Source: Candidatus Desulfofervidus auxilii (GTDB lineage: Bacteria; Desulfobacterota; Desulfofervidia; Desulfofervidales; Desulfofervidaceae). From it: a DNA stretch of 64,000 nt. The notes under the pieces are model-generated. The model saw only the letters and a program-made list of their open reading frames with translations. It did not search any database and was not told where the DNA came from. A program made the position numbers and the translations under genes. The stretch spans positions 2,003,751 to 2,067,750 of the forward strand of contig NZ_CP013015.1 in the NCBI RefSeq assembly GCF_001577525.1. The letters run 5' to 3'. Position 1 is the first letter of the stretch. Each line of letters begins with the position of its first letter. Shown piece after piece: positions 26,283 to 35,377 of the stretch.

Positions 26283-27617
26283 ATGAATATTATTATTGTA
26301 GGAGCTGGAGAAGTAGGTTTTCATATTGCTCATAAGTTATCCAGAGAAAATGACATAGTTATAGTGGAAAAAAAACCGGAAAAAATTAAATATATTTCTG
26401 AACATCTGGATGTAGGCGCTGTTCTAGGTTCGGGAAGCAATCCTGCTGTCTTGGAAGAAGCTGGGATAAAATCAGCAGACATGTTAATCGCGGTAACCGA
26501 CAGTGATGAGACTAATATATTAGCCTGTCTGGTAGCCAATTTTATATCTCCTCATATTTCCAAGGCATCGAGGATAAGAAATCCAGAATTTATCAGATAC
26601 GAAAACCTTTTGGGCCGAAGTTTTTTGAATATAGACTTAATTATTAATCCCGAATTAGAAGCAGTTAAATCCATCTTAAAACTCCTAGAGGTGCCTGGGG
26701 CTTCAGATGTTGTGGATTTTGCAGGAGAATTAGTCAGAATTATAGGTATTAAAGTAGACTGGGAGCAACTGGTGGGAATAAAATTGAAAGACTTAGAGAA
26801 GAAAGTCTCCCACAAGTTACTTATTGTAGCTATAGTGCGTAATGGTCAATTGATTATTCCTACAGGGGAGGATAAAATATTACTTAATGACTTAATTTAT
26901 GTGATAAGTAAAGGAGAGAAAACCTGCCATATATTAGAAGCGTTTGGGAAAGAAACTAAGCCGATAACAAAAGTCCTAATTGTTGGAGGTGGAATTGTAG
27001 GTGTAACTTTGGCCTTTGAATTAGAAAAAAGAGGCATCCAAACTAAAATTATTGAAAAAAACCCTGAACACTGTGCCTATTTAGTAGAAAAATTGGAAAA
27101 AACTACGGTTTTAGAAGGTAATGGCACTGACCTAACACTCCTTAGAGAAGAAAATATCCAAGAGCTTGATTATGTGATCACAGTGACCGGAGAGGAAGAA
27201 CAAAATGTAATGATTTCTTTGTTGGCAAAAGCCTTAGGGGCAAAAAGAACATTAACTCGTATAAATAAAACCAGTTACTTGCCTATAATCTCGGCCATAG
27301 GTTTAGATAATATTGTAAGTCCTGCCTTATCTGCAGTGAGTGCTTTACTCAAACATATGTTTCAAAAAAAAGTGCTCTCAGTTATGCCTCTAGGAGAAGA
27401 CTTACAAGCTATTGAAGTAATGACTACCACGGTTTCTAATATAATTGAAAAACCTCTAAAAAAATTAAAATTTCCTAAAGGAACTATTGTAGGAGCCATT
27501 GTAAGAAACAAAAATGTTATTATTCCATCAGGAGAAACTGTAATTCTGCCAGAAGATAGAGTGGTTATTTTTTCTACCACAGAGGCTATACCTAAAGTAG
27601 AAAAATTTTGGCGTTAA
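26283..27617 (+). CDS. trkA: Trk potassium uptake regulator TrkA (double RCK)
   Basis: TrkA is the cytoplasmic NAD(H)/nucleotide-binding gating subunit of the Trk channel. The 444-residue protein has two RCK units: N1 at about 1-130 (NIIIVGAGEVGFHIAHKL), C1 to about 220, N2 from about 228 (KVLIVGGGIVGVTLAFELEK), and C2 ending near 440. Both Rossmann glycine motifs are intact. It is the first gene of a four-gene K+ uptake operon and overlaps the possible TTG start of trkH. Confidence 0.95.
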   Translation: MNIIIVGAGEVGFHIAHKLSRENDIVIVEKKPEKIKYISEHLDVGAVLGSGSNPAVLEEAGIKSADMLIAVTDSDETNILACLVANFISPHISKASRIRNPEFIRYENLLGRSFLNIDLIINPELEAVKSILKLLEVPGASDVVDFAGELVRIIGIKVDWEQLVGIKLKDLEKKVSHKLLIVAIVRNGQLIIPTGEDKILLNDLIYVISKGEKTCHILEAFGKETKPITKVLIVGGGIVGVTLAFELEKRGIQTKIIEKNPEHCAYLVEKLEKTTVLEGNGTDLTLLREENIQELDYVITVTGEEEQNVMISLLAKALGAKRTLTRINKTSYLPIISAIGLDNIVSPALSAVSALLKHMFQKKVLSVMPLGEDLQAIEVMTTTVSNIIEKPLKKLKFPKGTIVGAIVRNKNVIIPSGETVILPEDRVVIFSTTEAIPKVEKFWR

Positions 27618-27622
27618 AGAAA

Positions 27623-29068
27623 ATGCGACTCCTTTATGTCTTCCACTTAATATCTATTTTAGCCTTTTTTCTTGGAATTGCTATGCTAGCTCCCTTATTG
27701 GTTTCTATCATTTATAAGGATGGAAGCCATTGGGCATTTATCAAAGCTATCCTATTAACTACATTTACTGGTTCAATGGGCTATTTCTTCTTAAAACGCC
27801 ATAGAAACGCCGAGCTTTCCCATCGGGAAGGCATAGCTATTGTGGCTATAGGATGGCTAGCTGCTGGGATTTTTGGTGCCTTACCCTATATATTCGCCAA
27901 TGTATTTGATAGCTTTGTCAACGCCTTTTTTGAATCTGTCTCAGGTTTTACTACTACAGGTGCTAGTGTCTTAAATGAGATAGAATCTTTATCCCATAGT
28001 ATCTTATTTTGGAGGAGTCTAACCCAATGGTTAGGCGGGATGGGTATTATTGTCCTTTCTATAGCCATTTTGCCCTTTCTGGGTGTGGGAGGTATGCAGC
28101 TATATAAGGCAGAAGCACCCACGCTGATGGTAGACAAGTTAAGACCAAGAATTTCGGAAACAGCCAAATCTTTATGGAAAGTCTATGTATTCATCTCACT
28201 TTGTGAGATTTTCTTATTATCAACCGGCGGTATGGATTTCTTTGATGCATTATGTCATACCTTCACTACGATGCCTACCGGAGGATTTTCCACTAAAAAT
28301 GCCAGTATTGCTCATTATAAAAGTGCTTATTTTGATGGTATTATAATTTTCTTTATGCTCTTGGCAGGCATAAATTTTTCTCTACATTATCGAGTGTTAA
28401 AGGGTGAGGTAAGAAGTTTTTTTAGAGACACAGAGCTTAGATTTTTTTTATTTATAATCAGTGTATTTATCATCCTGGTTAGTTTTAATATATATAACCA
28501 TTACCATAACATTTTAAAAACCATTCGTTATGCAAGTTTCCAGGTTTGTTCCATAATTACTACCACTGGATATACCACTGCTGATTTTGATACCTGGCCT
28601 ACTCTATCTAAAATCATTTTATTAACTTGCATGTTTTTAGGAGCTTGCGCAGGCTCTACCGGCGGAGGAATAAAATGTGTACGTCTTTTGTTATTATTGA
28701 AATGTGGTTATAAAGAAATATTTAAACTCATTCATCCCCATGCAGTAACCCAAATTAAACTGGGTAAAAAGGCTATACCTTCAGATGTAATAAGTGGGGT
28801 AATCGGCCTTTTTGTCCTCTATATATCATTGTTTATTGTTTTTTCTATGTCCCTTGCCGCCATGGGTATGGATTTTATCAGTTCTATAGCAGCGGTAGCG
28901 GCTACCATGGGGAATATAGGTCCTGGTTTGGCTATGGTAGGACCGGTAAAAAATTATGATTTAGTGCCTTATTTTGGGAAATGGGTGCTTATTTTATGTA
29001 TGCTCTTGGGTAGACTGGAGATTTATACTATTATAGTGTTATTCACACCTGAATTTTGGAGAAAGTAG
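27623..29068 (+). CDS. trkH: Trk-type potassium uptake channel subunit TrkH
   Basis: The membrane channel gated by TrkA, about 481 residues from this ATG. The four P-loop selectivity regions are recognisable: TTGASVLNE, MPTGGFSTK, TTGYTTADFDTWP and MGNIGPGL, each carrying the conserved glycine, and the gate segment GACAGSTGGGIKC is present. A TTG 15 bases upstream (27608) is an alternative start overlapping trkA. I prefer the ATG. It is followed 1 bp later by ktrB, so two channel genes sit side by side. Confidence 0.94.
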   Translation: MRLLYVFHLISILAFFLGIAMLAPLLVSIIYKDGSHWAFIKAILLTTFTGSMGYFFLKRHRNAELSHREGIAIVAIGWLAAGIFGALPYIFANVFDSFVNAFFESVSGFTTTGASVLNEIESLSHSILFWRSLTQWLGGMGIIVLSIAILPFLGVGGMQLYKAEAPTLMVDKLRPRISETAKSLWKVYVFISLCEIFLLSTGGMDFFDALCHTFTTMPTGGFSTKNASIAHYKSAYFDGIIIFFMLLAGINFSLHYRVLKGEVRSFFRDTELRFFLFIISVFIILVSFNIYNHYHNILKTIRYASFQVCSIITTTGYTTADFDTWPTLSKIILLTCMFLGACAGSTGGGIKCVRLLLLLKCGYKEIFKLIHPHAVTQIKLGKKAIPSDVISGVIGLFVLYISLFIVFSMSLAAMGMDFISSIAAVAATMGNIGPGLAMVGPVKNYDLVPYFGKWVLILCMLLGRLEIYTIIVLFTPEFWRK

Positions 29069-29069
29069 A

Positions 29070-30431
29070 TTGTTCCAAAAGATTTTAGAAATACCCAAAA
29101 ACCTATCTCCGCCAGCCATCCTTGCCCTTTCTTTTATTATTTTAATCTTGATGGGCTCGGTATTACTCTATTTACCTTTTGCTCATGTAGGAAAACTTTC
29201 TTACATTAATTCTTTATTCACGGCCACTTCTGCTGTATGTGTGACAGGATTGACAGTAGTGGATACCGGGACAAAATTTACTTTCTGGGGACAGTTAATC
29301 GTTCTTTTTCTTATCCAATTAGGAGGATTGGGATTAATGACCGTTTCTACTGTGGTTTTATTCCTTCTAGGTAAATCTCCATCTATTAAAGACCGTCTAG
29401 TGCTGCAAAATAGCTTCACTTACTCTCCTACTAAAGATATTCTCTCTCTGGTAAAAGCGATTTTAATATTCACCTTTGCTGCTGAATTAATTGGAGCCTT
29501 TATTTTAGGAACCTATTGGCAGCATTTCTATCCCTTATCTAAAGCCATTTTTTACGGCATTTTTCATGCCATCTCTGCCTTTTGTAACGCTGGCTTTTCA
29601 TTATTCACTACCAACTTAGAGGAATTTAGTGCAAACTACACAGTAGTATTGACCATTGCTTCTTTATTTATTCTAGGAGGCTTGGGATTTCTTGTTATTT
29701 ATGAAATTTTCCTGTGCCTTTATGCCAAAAAAACTCTCCTTTCCCTCCATGCTAAACTCACTCTTATTACCAATCTCTATCTCATCCTAGGAGGAACAGT
29801 CTTATTCTTTTTCTTTGAGAAGTCAAATGTCCTCAATGGGTTTTCTCTCACCTATAAGATTATCAATTCCTTTTTTCAGGCGGTAACTCCAAGGACTGCC
29901 GGTTTCAATACCTTACCTATTGCCCATTTAACAGATGCCACCTTATTTTTACTAATAATTCTAATGTTTATTGGAGCCTCACCCGGTTCATGTGGTGGAG
30001 GAATAAAGACCACTACCTTTGCGCTATTTTTAAGTTTTATTAAAAACAAACTTCAGGGTCGTGAAAAGGTGCATATTTTATTTCGCACCTTACCTAATGA
30101 AACTGTGCAAAGGGCCATCACGGTGGTCAGTGTCTCTGGTATTTTAGTAGTGGTTTGCACTATCCTCTTACTTTTAACCCAAAGGTATGGGATCCCTCAT
30201 GGGGCAGGCAATGGCGGCTTTTTAGAATACCTCTTTGAAGTTGCTTCTGCCTTTGGCACAGTGGGTCTGTCAACGGGGAAAACACCTACTTTGAATAGTT
30301 GGGGAAAGATTACCCTCAGCCTACTTATGTTTATTGGCAGAGTGGGTCCCTTGACAGTGGCCCATTTGGTTAAAATAGAAAAAGTAACCCCACCCTATCA
30401 ATATTCCGAAGAAAATGTTATGGTGGGCTAG
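29070..30431 (+). CDS. ktrB: Ktr-type potassium uptake channel subunit KtrB
   Basis: A second TrkH/KtrB superfamily channel, 453 residues. Its shorter length and the P-loops VTGLTVVDTG, SAFCNAGFSLF, TPRTAGFNTL and GTVGLSTGKTP, with GASPGSCGGGIKTTT at the gate, fit KtrB, which is usually Na+-dependent. The start is TTG at 29070, preceded by GGAGAAAG; no nearer ATG fits. It is paired with ktrA 8 bp downstream. The selectivity-loop glycines are all present. Confidence 0.93.
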   Translation: MFQKILEIPKNLSPPAILALSFIILILMGSVLLYLPFAHVGKLSYINSLFTATSAVCVTGLTVVDTGTKFTFWGQLIVLFLIQLGGLGLMTVSTVVLFLLGKSPSIKDRLVLQNSFTYSPTKDILSLVKAILIFTFAAELIGAFILGTYWQHFYPLSKAIFYGIFHAISAFCNAGFSLFTTNLEEFSANYTVVLTIASLFILGGLGFLVIYEIFLCLYAKKTLLSLHAKLTLITNLYLILGGTVLFFFFEKSNVLNGFSLTYKIINSFFQAVTPRTAGFNTLPIAHLTDATLFLLIILMFIGASPGSCGGGIKTTTFALFLSFIKNKLQGREKVHILFRTLPNETVQRAITVVSVSGILVVVCTILLLLTQRYGIPHGAGNGGFLEYLFEVASAFGTVGLSTGKTPTLNSWGKITLSLLMFIGRVGPLTVAHLVKIEKVTPPYQYSEENVMVG

Positions 30432-30439
30432 GAGGTAAA

Positions 30440-31099
30440 ATGAGAGTAGCTATATTCGGTCTGGGTATCTTTGGAAGTAATGTAGCCAAATCACTTTTTG
30501 AAAAAAAACATGAGGTCATTGCCATCGATAGAAGAAAAGACTTGGTGCAAAAGGCACAGGAATACACTACTCAAGCCATTGTTGCCGATTGCACTGAGCG
30601 AGAACTGTTGAAAAATTTGGGTTTGGATAAAGTAGATTTAGCAATAGTAAGTTTAGGTAGCAATCTCAGTGCCAGTATCTTATTAGTGCTTTATTTAAAA
30701 GAACTAGGGGTGGAACAAATTATTGTCAAGGCCATAAACGAAGACCATCAGAAGATATTACAATTAGTAGGGGCAAATAAGGTAGTTTTCCCAGAACGGG
30801 ATGCCGCCATAAAGTTAGCAGCTAGTGTAGATACTCCAAATCTAGTAGACTACCTTCCTCTTTCAGAAGACTATCAAGTAATGGAGATAGTTGCTCCTCA
30901 GGCATTTAAGGACAAAACCTTAGGTGAGTTAGACCTTCGCCGTCGCTACGGCATTCAAGTAATTGCTGTGAGAGAAGCAGGATCAGAACAGGTTAATCTC
31001 CTGACCTCGGCTGAATTTAAAATCAAAGAAGGAGACATGCTGATTATCTTAGGACGTACTGAAGATATAGAAAAATTCAAAAAAATGGCAGGTGGTTAA
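30440..31099 (+). CDS. ktrA: Ktr potassium uptake regulatory subunit KtrA
   Basis: A single-RCK regulator of 219 residues (N-domain MRVAIFGLGIFGSNVAKSLF, acidic strand HEVIAIDRRKDLV, and a C-terminal RCK-C domain from about 140). KtrA forms an octameric ring that binds ATP/ADP and gates KtrB. Its length is half that of TrkA, as expected. It ends the K+ operon and overlaps the convergent trpS by 4 nt. AGGAGG lies ahead of the ATG. Confidence 0.94.
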   Translation: MRVAIFGLGIFGSNVAKSLFEKKHEVIAIDRRKDLVQKAQEYTTQAIVADCTERELLKNLGLDKVDLAIVSLGSNLSASILLVLYLKELGVEQIIVKAINEDHQKILQLVGANKVVFPERDAAIKLAASVDTPNLVDYLPLSEDYQVMEIVAPQAFKDKTLGELDLRRRYGIQVIAVREAGSEQVNLLTSAEFKIKEGDMLIILGRTEDIEKFKKMAGG

Positions 31100-32076
31100 A
31101 TTCCTATAGCTTCTTTGGCCTCTCCTAAAGTAGTAGTAGCGACTGAACGCGCCTTTTTTATACCTGCATCAATAATATTCTTTAATTCCTCTAAATGCCC
31201 CTGATAATATTGCCGTTTTTCCTGTAGAGGGGCCAAACCATTAATCAGATTTTCAGCCAACAATTTCTTACACTCCACACAACCTATACGGGCTTTTTTG
31301 CAATCTTCCTCTATCTGACTTACTTTTTCAGGTGATGTATAAAGTTTATGGAAAGAAAAGACATTACAGATATCAGGGTGACCAGGGTCTGTTTTTCTTA
31401 AACGCGTTTTATCTGTAAACATCTGGAGTGTTTTCTCTCTTATCACTTTTGGAGGGTCAGATAGATAAATGGCATTATGATAACTCTTGCTCATCTTACG
31501 ACCATCAATGCCTAATATCTTAGGCATTTCTGTTAGGATAGGTTCTGGAATAGGAAAGACTTCTTTATATAAATAATTGAACCTACGGGCAATCTCACGG
31601 GTTATTTCCACATGGGGCAATTGGTCCACACCTACAGGCACAAAGTTGGCCTTATATATTAGAATATCTGCAGCCTGAAGAACTGGATAGCCAAGGAAGC
31701 CATAGGTATTTAAGTCCTTTTCCACCAATTCTTTTATTTGTTCCTTATAGGTAGGATTCCTTTCCAACCAGGGGATAGGAGTAATCATAGAAAAAATTAA
31801 ATGTAGTTCTGCATGTTCAGGTAATTTAGACTGAATAAAAAGAGTAGATTTATTGGGATCAAGGCCCACACTTAACCAATCTATCAACATTTCCCAAATG
31901 AACTCTTTGATAAAATTTGTTTCTTGATATTCACTGGTTAAGGCATGCCAATCAGCAACAAAAAAGAAACATTCATACTCCTCTTGTAATCGTTTCCAAT
32001 TGGTCAATGCCCCATGAAGGTTACCTAAATGAAGCTTACCTGTAGGGCGCATACCGCTTAAAACTCTTTTTTCCAA
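31096..32076 (-). CDS. trpS: Tryptophan-tRNA ligase
   Basis: A class I aminoacyl-tRNA synthetase of 326 residues. It shows the HIGH-type motif GKLHLGNLHGAL and the KMSKS motif DGRKMSKSYHNAI, with GVDQLPHVEITREIARRFN between. The tail carries two extra cysteine pairs (IGCVECKKLLAE region), seen in some bacterial TrpRS. It is separated by 27 bp from the upstream DUF429 fusion gene on the same strand and may be co-transcribed with it. Confidence 0.95.
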   Translation of the reverse strand: MEKRVLSGMRPTGKLHLGNLHGALTNWKRLQEEYECFFFVADWHALTSEYQETNFIKEFIWEMLIDWLSVGLDPNKSTLFIQSKLPEHAELHLIFSMITPIPWLERNPTYKEQIKELVEKDLNTYGFLGYPVLQAADILIYKANFVPVGVDQLPHVEITREIARRFNYLYKEVFPIPEPILTEMPKILGIDGRKMSKSYHNAIYLSDPPKVIREKTLQMFTDKTRLRKTDPGHPDICNVFSFHKLYTSPEKVSQIEEDCKKARIGCVECKKLLAENLINGLAPLQEKRQYYQGHLEELKNIIDAGIKKARSVATTTLGEAKEAIGI

Positions 32077-32103: not shown

Positions 32104-33501
32104 TTAAAAGCACAAATGTTTTAAGGTGTCAAGTGTGGAGATTGAGAGACCTTCTTGAGGGAAAAATAGGACAGAAAAAAAGTAACCGCATTCCTGAACA
32201 CAAATAGGAGAAATTAGTTCCTTTATAAGATATTTCGCTTTGGTCTCTTTTAAAAATTGCAATAAATCCATATATTTTCTTTCATTTGGTTTATAAGGAA
32301 TAAAAAGAAAAATAGAAGAATCTCTCTGTTTGTTAATAATATTTGGCATCACCCCTTCCCAAATTTCCCAGAAATCATCATATGGGTCTAAAAAAATAAG
32401 GTCATAGGCATTGGGTTGAGTTAATATTTCATATCCATCTTTCAGGAATAAAGAGGGTTTTTGAAAAAATACTTCATATGCCTTAAGGGCCTGGGGATTT
32501 TTATCGTAAAAATCTATAGTATATGATTTCTTTTTCTTTGTGCACAGAAGCTTTATTAAATGAGCACTACCTGCATATTGGCCATTTTGTAAATAAGGCC
32601 TTTGAAGTCTATAAAGAAAGGAGGTTTTTAATCTTTCCTCAAAATACAAAACAACCTTGGGTGAAGTTTGGTAAATAGGAAATCCACAAAATGTATCAGC
32701 ATATCGGAAATGGTGGGTTTTCTTTAATAACTCATCAGTAATAGTCAATAACCAACTATGTTTTAAAATATCTCCCAGGTTACCAGGAATATATTTCAAT
32801 TTTGAGATTTTTTTCTTGGAATGTGGCGCAAATATATAAAAAGGGGCAAAACCATGAACCTCTTCTTCCAAGGAGAGTTTATAAAGTAGGTGATATCTTT
32901 TTATATAAAGAAAGGCCATGAGAGCACAGATAAGAGCATCCAAGGCACCGTCTGTTTTTATCTCTTTTGGTGAAATAACAAAATCTATGTTTAATAACCG
33001 CGGAATATAATCAAAAACTTTATTGGTCAATTGGCGAAGATATTTAAAAGAAGTCTTGTACTTTTTCAAAGATTCGCTTTTTTCCTTCAACATAAAAAAA
33101 AGAGAACTCCTGGGATGAGTTTCAATGAGGGCACCTACATAAGGGAGTATCAAAGAAGCTAGTTGTTGAGCCCTTAAAGGAACAGCCTGCATGGAATTTG
33201 GTGATTGAACCCAGTTTTTGATATCTTTATCTAAAAGACATCTCAATTCTATGTCACATAATCTCCATTTTTTTGTCTGGGGAGTAAAGCTTAAAGGGGC
33301 GTCTATGGCACAACATATGAAATCTTTATTTTTAACCAAATTTACTATTTCTGAAAGGGCCTCTATTTTATATGGTGGTCTTGACCAAAAAATTCTTTTT
33401 TTATCTTCTTCCCAGACCAATTCACAAACCCATGAATTTTCTGCCCCAGCAATGTCTATTCCTAAAAATCTTAATGAATTCATAATTAAACTTAAACACA
33501 A
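32104..33501 (-). CDS. DUF429 (RNase H-like) - RlmJ-like methyltransferase fusion protein
   Basis: A 465-residue protein made of two domains not normally joined. Residues about 10-205 match DUF429, a predicted RNase H-fold nuclease: FLGIDIAG (Asp16), CCAIDAPLSF (Asp67), ALIETHPRSSL, and DGALDALICALMAF (Asp184, Asp188). Residues about 230-455 match RlmJ, the 23S rRNA A2030 N6-methyltransferase: GNLGDILKH (240-248), FRYADT, QYAGSAHLIKLL, DGYEIL and LIFLDPYDDF (372-377) in place of the usual DPPYE. The catalytic DPPY is altered to DPYD, so activity is uncertain. A start at Met7 (33483) is equally possible. It lies upstream of trpS on the same strand. The biological role is unknown; coupling nucleic acid cleavage or binding to base methylation is my inference. 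Confidence 0.75.
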   Translation of the reverse strand: MCLSLIMNSLRFLGIDIAGAENSWVCELVWEEDKKRIFWSRPPYKIEALSEIVNLVKNKDFICCAIDAPLSFTPQTKKWRLCDIELRCLLDKDIKNWVQSPNSMQAVPLRAQQLASLILPYVGALIETHPRSSLFFMLKEKSESLKKYKTSFKYLRQLTNKVFDYIPRLLNIDFVISPKEIKTDGALDALICALMAFLYIKRYHLLYKLSLEEEVHGFAPFYIFAPHSKKKISKLKYIPGNLGDILKHSWLLTITDELLKKTHHFRYADTFCGFPIYQTSPKVVLYFEERLKTSFLYRLQRPYLQNGQYAGSAHLIKLLCTKKKKSYTIDFYDKNPQALKAYEVFFQKPSLFLKDGYEILTQPNAYDLIFLDPYDDFWEIWEGVMPNIINKQRDSSIFLFIPYKPNERKYMDLLQFLKETKAKYLIKELISPICVQECGYFFSVLFFPQEGLSISTLDTLKHLCF

Positions 33502-33520: not shown

Positions 33521-34537
33521 TTAGATTACCACAGGAATATACTGGCCACAAAAGGGGCATGTGTTTTGGGTGAGATAGTTTTCAACCACTTGCCATCCGT
33601 GTCTTTTTATAAGTAAGCTATAACAATGTGGGCAGTAAGTATTCTCTCCATGATGACCAGGAATATTTCCTATATAAGGAAAAAGCACCCCTTTTTTCTG
33701 AGCTAGAGTATATGCTTGCTCTAATATAGAAATAGCAGTAGGGGGTTTATGATAATTATAGGCAGGAAAATAACGGGTAAAATGAAGTGGGGTCTGTGGA
33801 CCTAAATATTTCAGATGTTTTTCTACAATTTTTTTAATCTTTTTTAATTCATCATTTAAACCACTGACTATTAAATGCACCATTTCTACATGCATTCCCA
33901 TTTCTTTAGCCGCCTTAGCATTTCGCCAGATAACTTCCTCTCTGGCCCCTAAATATTCTTTATAGACCTGTTTATCACCTTTTATATCTATATTTATGGC
34001 ATCCATTCCTGCCTCTTTAAGTAATTTTAAGGCCTCAAGGGTCATATAACCATTGGAAACAAAGGTATTATAAAGCCCCTTTTTCTTAGCCAATTTGAAC
34101 ACATCTAAGGCATATTCAAAAAGCACAGTAGGTTCCTGAAAACTAATACACAATCCATCTGTTTTTTCTTGTTGGGCTATCTCCACCATAAGCTCTGGTT
34201 CTATAAAACAGGCAGAACCTGGGTTAGGGGCATTTTTTGAAAGATGCCAGTTTTGACACCAAGGACAGTCAAAATTACATGACCAGGTGGAAAATGTTAG
34301 TGCCTTTGAACCAGGATAAAAATGAAAAAAAGGCTTTATTTCAATAGGTCTAGCCTCAAGGGCACTGATGTCTCCATAAACTAAGGTATAAAGACAGCCA
34401 TTTATGTTTTTTCTTGTTTTGCAAACCCCCGTTTTTCCCTCTTTAATCACACATCTCCTTTCACATAAAACACAGCAGGCTTGTCCTTCTTTTATTTCTT
34501 CCTGAAGGATTGCCTTTTTTACTGTAGGATAATTCAT
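33521..34537 (-). CDS. amrS: AmmeMemoRadiSam-type radical SAM enzyme (AmrS family)
   Basis: A radical SAM enzyme of the AmrS/COG1180 family, about 338 residues from this ATG. The [4Fe-4S]-SAM motif is CNFDCPWC (CxxxCxxC). An N-terminal cysteine segment (CCVLCERRCVI, TGVCKTR) and a C-terminal zinc-ribbon-like pair (YCPHC, CPFCG) complete the family layout. The longer frame to 34636 adds 33 unconserved residues. In some genomes AmrS travels with MEMO and AMMECR1 genes; neither is in the window, so the enzyme is solitary here. The substrate is unknown. Confidence 0.85.
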   Translation of the reverse strand: MNYPTVKKAILQEEIKEGQACCVLCERRCVIKEGKTGVCKTRKNINGCLYTLVYGDISALEARPIEIKPFFHFYPGSKALTFSTWSCNFDCPWCQNWHLSKNAPNPGSACFIEPELMVEIAQQEKTDGLCISFQEPTVLFEYALDVFKLAKKKGLYNTFVSNGYMTLEALKLLKEAGMDAINIDIKGDKQVYKEYLGAREEVIWRNAKAAKEMGMHVEMVHLIVSGLNDELKKIKKIVEKHLKYLGPQTPLHFTRYFPAYNYHKPPTAISILEQAYTLAQKKGVLFPYIGNIPGHHGENTYCPHCYSLLIKRHGWQVVENYLTQNTCPFCGQYIPVVI

Positions 34538-34650
34538 AAACATTAATTTAACATAAAATGACACATTGCAAAAATGGCTTCCAATTTTAGTTTTAAAGAT
34601 AATAAAATTGGACATTCCCCAAAATTTAGGCGTCAATCTTTAAAAACATT

Positions 34651-34806: not shown

Positions 34807-35164
34807 GGGAGTTTTGTCATTGGGATTTTGGGCTTGATTTGACATTTGAGCTTTGTCATTTGTCATTTTAAGATTTAATAAAATTAGGGGTTTGGTCTCC
34901 ACATTTGACATTAAACTGGTCTGTCTGATTCATATGCGTAAAGCGTGAGGCGTAAAGCGTGAGGTGTAAGGAGTTTTTTAACACTTTACTTTTAACGCTT
35001 TACTCTTTACGGCTTTTTCTTTTAAAGTTATTACTGTTTTGAGGAACTTACCTTACCTTTTTAGAAAGCTTTTAAAAATTCTGGGAAAGTTCTGTAATAA
35101 AATACTTGACAAATTTTTTAAAAATGGTTTAGTACCTATTATACCTTTGACTGGGATTATAAAG

Positions 35165-35377
35165 ATGGCAAATTATTCTACAAAGGAATTTTTGAGAAAA
35201 ATTGGAGTCTCTGAATCTACTTTGAGAAGATGGCTCTCAGAGAATAGAATTCCTCAATTGAACAATGTAAAAAGGGATTGGAAAGGCTGGAGAATCTGGC
35301 AAGATGAACATGTTGAGGCAGTCTTGGAATATAAAAATAGGAAGTGGTTGTCATTTAAAAAGAAGGGGGAAAAATGA
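35165..35377 (+). CDS. Small MerR/excisionase-type HTH DNA-binding protein
   Basis: A protein of about 70 residues with a single MerR-like helix-turn-helix: YSTKEFLRKIGVSESTLRRW, then the wing segment SENRIPQLNNVKRDWKGW. No ligand domain is present. I chose ATG at 35165; the open frame extends to a TTG at 35039, but those codons are unconserved and rich in Lys and Phe. Its stop overlaps the FadL start as ATGA, which ties it to the seven downstream genes and makes it a candidate regulator of them. Similar proteins act as recombination directionality factors, but no integrase is nearby. Confidence 0.72.
   Translation: MANYSTKEFLRKIGVSESTLRRWLSENRIPQLNNVKRDWKGWRIWQDEHVEAVLEYKNRKWLSFKKKGEK

Follow-up and report, generated by a model that had tools for sequence, protein, structure and literature searches.

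Architecture and distribution of the fusion

The window analysed here, a stretch of 64,000 nucleotides from the genome of Candidatus Desulfofervidus auxilii, carries a gene that almost certainly encodes a two-domain protein in which a DUF429 domain is joined to an RlmJ-like methyltransferase domain. This architecture, proposed in an earlier note on the same DNA, was borne out: the gene is one intact open reading frame and the fusion recurs in a second genus. The source organism is a heat-loving sulfate reducer whose genome is represented by a single contig of 2.54 Mb. The gene, its domains and its direct neighbors are as follows (window coordinates).

32107..33483, minus strand: fusion gene of 459 aa with its ATG start at 33483 and its stop codon at 32104-32106
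32842..33483, minus strand: DUF429 domain, residues about 1-214, predicted RuvC-type RNase H-like fold, with D10, D61, E121, D178 and D182
32107..32808, minus strand: RlmJ-like methyltransferase domain, residues about 226-459, with GNLGDILKH (234-242), YADTFCGF, YAGS and the motif IV loop DPYD
32377..32388, minus strand: codons of the motif IV loop D366-P367-Y368-D369, the counterpart of DPPY in RlmJ
33521..34636, minus strand: AmmeMemoRadiSam-system radical SAM enzyme (TIGR04337), co-directional upstream neighbor, with 37 bp between its end and the ATG of the fusion
31096..32076, minus strand: trpS-like class I aminoacyl-tRNA synthetase (PF00579), co-directional downstream neighbor, 27 bp past the stop codon of the fusion

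An alternative TTG start at 33501 would yield 465 aa, the frame used in the earlier note. The ATG at 33483 was preferred because it better fits the start of the orthologue described below. Residues are numbered from this ATG, so that D16, D67, D184 and D188 of the earlier numbering correspond to D10, D61, D178 and D182.

A full-length orthologue is found elsewhere in the family Candidatus Desulfofervidaceae, in a second genus (G001, L003:1489-2847, minus strand). It is likewise encoded in a single frame and shares 58% identity with the window protein, with 63% for the DUF429 half and 54% for the methyltransferase half. Differences between the two genes amount to 0.35/0.21/0.54 at codon positions 1/2/3, which by sequence comparison is a purifying pattern, in keeping with selection acting on the protein. 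Nothing was found in favor of the concern that an assembly frameshift or other artefact had joined two genes. It can be dismissed, because the G001 fusion is likewise a single open frame at this level of identity and shows the purifying codon pattern. Further relatives are found in a third genus (G002), where the last 72 residues of the C-terminal half are present at a contig end, and in a fourth (G004, same family), which encodes a DUF429 protein of 236 aa alone (47% identity) that ends at the domain border. Free-standing relatives of the methyltransferase half start just before this same border. Because each half exists separately and with matching borders, the fusion is a clean join of two units. 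Beyond the fusions in the window and in G001, no others were seen among the 384-395 genomes sampled from the phylum. One wider contig scan with narrow DUF429 patterns returned 1 Desulfofervidaceae genome, and the fusion survey thus applies at the level of the phylum. No relatives were matched in plasmids, phages (tblastn) or viral contigs.

The gene neighborhood differs between the genera. In G002, the C-terminal fragment adjoins a gene for Memo (AmmeMemoRadiSam protein B) and in the window the radical SAM enzyme of the same system lies directly upstream, while in G001 neither of these two genes is adjacent to the fusion. Vicinity to AmmeMemoRadiSam genes in two genera (L005:542-1638 in G002; 33521-34636 in the window) is suggestive only and may reflect either a functional link or chance. 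Our literature search returned nothing useful on the function of AmmeMemoRadiSam. The source genome encodes the AmmeMemoRadiSam-type radical SAM protein three times, namely next to the fusion (G000:C1:2037274) and at 1934750 and 173670. Two other features of the surroundings may be recorded. A small HTH-like protein is encoded at 35039-35377 (plus strand), directly before an outer-membrane-transporter-like gene, and shows a weak PADLOC match to mads_1 (1.5e-8). Judged only by the look of their sequences, the genes at 27608-31099 (plus strand) encode two TrkH-like subunits of potassium transporters and, after them, a TrkA-like regulatory protein.

The DUF429 half

The N-terminal half scores 36.5 bits for PF04250 (DUF429), where the cut-off is 23, and the G001 orthologue scores 38.0. 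In an alignment of 21 diverse DUF429 proteins, all seven invariant columns (G8, D10, D61, P63, E121, P124 and D182) are kept in the fusion. The acidic residues and the ETHPR motif pointed out in the earlier note are all present. For this purpose the DUF429 half was aligned apart from the methyltransferase half, as the C-terminal helix of DUF429 was wrongly placed across the linker when both families were aligned jointly with MAFFT. A predicted model of residues 1-223 (pLDDT 88.6, pTM 0.89) had its best alignment with RuvC (VIA-align, Z 12.0, rmsd 3.0, 145 residues), and other Holliday-junction resolvases came next. Foldseek with the DUF429 model alone gave no match past E 0.001; the RuvC assignment is based on VIA-align, a structure search with the whole model and the literature. 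The DUF429 half is thus predicted to have an RNase H-like fold of the RuvC clade, which agrees with the published grouping of DUF429 with RuvC inside the RNase H-like superfamily (PMC3985635). By analogy, the DUF429 half of the fusion may be a nuclease: for the DUF429 domain of MSMEG_5849 (RelZ), RNase HII activity and the removal of R-loops are reported, the isolated domains being inactive (PMC4429107, PMC7591505).

The RlmJ-like half

The motifs of the RlmJ pattern named in the earlier note (GNLGDILKH, YADT, YAGSAHLIKLL and DPYD) are present in the C-terminal half. In Pfam the half falls below the PF04378 cut-off and matches no model, as does a free-standing relative (L019), and searches of Pfam, NCBIfam and PHROGs with the C-terminal half or the whole protein returned no significant methyltransferase family. 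A profile search of the PDB returned six RlmJ-family chains at E 5e-4 to 3e-3 as the only significant matches (E below 0.01), with the next row at E 0.34; the query profile was built from both fusion proteins plus a single free-standing relative and included no RlmJ. An hhalign comparison with a separate RlmJ alignment gave 97.2%. In the full-length model (pLDDT 84.9, pTM 0.65), which was predicted from an alignment that contained RlmJ relatives, residues 226-459 aligned with RlmJ at Z 20.1 (range 19-20) over 219 residues with an rmsd of 3.0, the next family reaching 12.9. Given the modest pTM, the arrangement of the two domains towards each other seems uncertain. Profile and predicted structure both give the RlmJ family when the half is checked for an unrelated fold, and on these two lines the C-terminal half is an RlmJ-family methyltransferase fold.

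The canonical form of motif IV is (N/D)PP(Y/F/W). The earlier note had described a catalytic loop changed from DPPY to DPYD; the loop is there, but it is a trait of a whole clade and not a local change. Free-standing DPYD-type proteins were found in seven genomes of one other family of the phylum (f94), with a fragment in an eighth, after a neighboring class was searched. The loop reads DPYD in the window protein, DPYA in G001 and DPYDD or DPYGD in the free-standing proteins. In a phylogenetic tree, the two fusions and the free-standing proteins form one clade (support 100/99) separated by a long branch from E. coli RlmJ. At L055 (13-1398 and 2218-3225) and L056-L060, free-standing DPYD-type genes adjoin genes for FAD-dependent oxidoreductases, and several also a geranylgeranyl-reductase-like gene.

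E. coli RlmJ requires Y4, H6, K18 and D164 (PMC3814359). Our alignment comprised 18 sequences, nine of them from the DPYD clade (two fusions and seven free-standing proteins). The equivalents of K18 and D164 are conserved in all 18. The clade further keeps those of G11, N12, D15 and S100, while E118 is changed to D. Replacements affect Y4, H6, P166, Y167, H42 and W195, the last by Phe, and for all of these except H42 they were scored in 9/9 clade members. Other RlmJ-like groups of the phylum retain Y4, H6 and W195 and carry DPPY, DPPF, DAPF, DPPG, DPAF or DPPW as motif IV. One such group (L061:1474-2277, L062:1477-2301) combines the motif IV form DPPG with retained Y4, H6 and W195.

With Y4 and H6 missing and DPPY changed, the domain may have no methyltransferase activity or may act on a different substrate. 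An inactive domain would bind RNA, or SAM as a signal, and thereby aim or regulate the DUF429 nuclease. The replacement of Y4, H6, P166, Y167 and W195 in every clade member and the departure of the loop from the canonical form speak for such a loss of catalysis. However, one would expect K18 and D164 to be lost from a dead domain, and these equivalents, together with those of N12, D15 and S100, are strictly kept whether the domain is fused or free. We therefore regard this explanation as rather unlikely. A remodelled target pocket in a putatively active enzyme fits the residue pattern better than decay.

Proposed function and alternatives

We propose that the fusion is a two-domain enzyme with coupled nuclease and methyltransferase activities on RNA or an RNA:DNA hybrid, a reading to which we give an even chance. 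The DUF429 domain would act as a metal-dependent nuclease of the RuvC/RNase H type, its acidic residues being intact, and the DPYD-type domain, in view of its retained K18/D164 pair, as a SAM-binding methyltransferase that binds structured nucleic acid. The RlmJ-like domain would recognise and probably methylate a nucleotide, and the DUF429 domain would cut the same or the paired strand. Both domains presumably act on the same molecule because they reside in one chain. Use of SAM, an RNA substrate and the coupling of cutting and methylation are all expected under this proposal. Against it, the two activities are not obligately coupled, since free-standing DPYD members occur in genomes where DUF429 has no match over the cut-off. 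More tentatively, the DPYD clade as a whole may represent undescribed nucleic-acid methyltransferases with a target atom or substrate other than that of RlmJ, the fusion of Desulfofervidaceae marking and cutting the same RNA or RNA:DNA structure.

Besides loss of catalysis, three other explanations were weighed against the proposed coupled enzyme. Action on nucleotides or another small molecule, with no polymer involved, would agree with the known partners of DUF429, which are enzymes of nucleotide metabolism (PMC3153485, PMC3985635). We consider it improbable, as the predicted fold is nearest to Holliday-junction resolvases, the RlmJ family methylates RNA and the DUF429 domain of RelZ cuts RNA:DNA hybrids.

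The fusion could also be the 23S rRNA A2030 methylase of this genome, that is a true RlmJ, with DUF429 as a passenger. The clear RlmJ fold and the absence of a PF04378 match from the source genome would be in line with this. However, the essential Y4 and H6 (PMC3814359) are missing, DPPY is changed and a long, well-supported branch separates the protein from E. coli RlmJ. Further, PF04378 is matched above the cut-off in only 2 of 99 related genomes, so that RlmJ is often missing from this phylum. With Y4, H6 and DPPY lacking in each of the nine clade members, the classical RlmJ site is an unlikely target for methylation, and the explanation as a whole is very hard to sustain.

No more credible is a role in defence, raised in the earlier note, in which the nuclease of the fusion would spare nucleic acid marked by the methyltransferase. 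The DUF429 half shows a weak PADLOC match to the candidate family PDC-S44 (1.8e-6, 25 bits). Against this reading, phages, plasmids and PHROGs gave no matches, the gene is conserved across genera and the neighbors include no clear system, with only weak general radical-SAM (pVip) matches for AmrS and the small mads_1-like match. The description of the locus in the same note, next to trpS and with no obvious defence genes around, agrees with what we found.

The fusion is of interest for both of its halves. Little hints at the role of the widespread DUF429 family, and a stable partner points to a nucleic-acid substrate in common with a family of RNA methyltransferases. The DPYD clade offers a natural variant of a textbook motif in which the catalytic Asp and Lys are kept, and so lends itself to asking which motif positions determine the target atom. 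Our literature search found no description of DUF429 joined to an RlmJ-like or any other methyltransferase domain. The statement in the earlier note that no described protein joins the two thus stands for this pair, but DUF429 fusions as such are known, the partners on record being RelA/SpoT, Nudix and phosphomethylpyrimidine (thiamine) kinase domains (PMC3985635, PMC3153485).

Comparison with known systems

RlmJ, the 23S rRNA m6A2030 methyltransferase (PF04378; PDB 4blu, 4blv, 7p9i), shares with the C-terminal half its fold (Z about 20), the motif X core GNxxDxxKH, YxGS and the catalytic Asp. The fusion differs in that it lacks Y4 and H6, carries DPYD in place of DPPY and Phe in place of both H42 and W195, lies below Pfam detection and has an N-terminal DUF429 domain. 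Closer relatives are the free-standing DPYD-type proteins of family f94 (L019, L055-L060), which have about 32% identity to the fusion, YADTF, YDLIFLDPYDD and the loss of Y4, H6 and DPPY in common with it, but are without a DUF429 domain.

In case of the N-terminal half, RuvC, MOC1 and the poxvirus Holliday-junction resolvases share the predicted fold (Z 9-12) and have a similar acidic active-site pattern, whereas sequence identity is only about 8-16%; for the fusion the likeness is one of fold and acidic pattern. Single-domain DUF429 proteins (PF04250; COG2410/COG4328/COG4923) have all invariant residues and the RuvC-like fold in common with the fusion. In published analyses the DUF429 family is mostly single-domain, with few Nudix, RelA/SpoT and thiamine-kinase fusions. 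RelZ (MS_RHII-RSD) of Mycobacterium smegmatis likewise combines an N-terminal DUF429 domain with a second enzymatic domain, and its activity is published. Its partner is a RelA/SpoT (p)ppGpp synthetase, whereas the fusion has no RelA/SpoT domain and instead carries an RlmJ-like methyltransferase.
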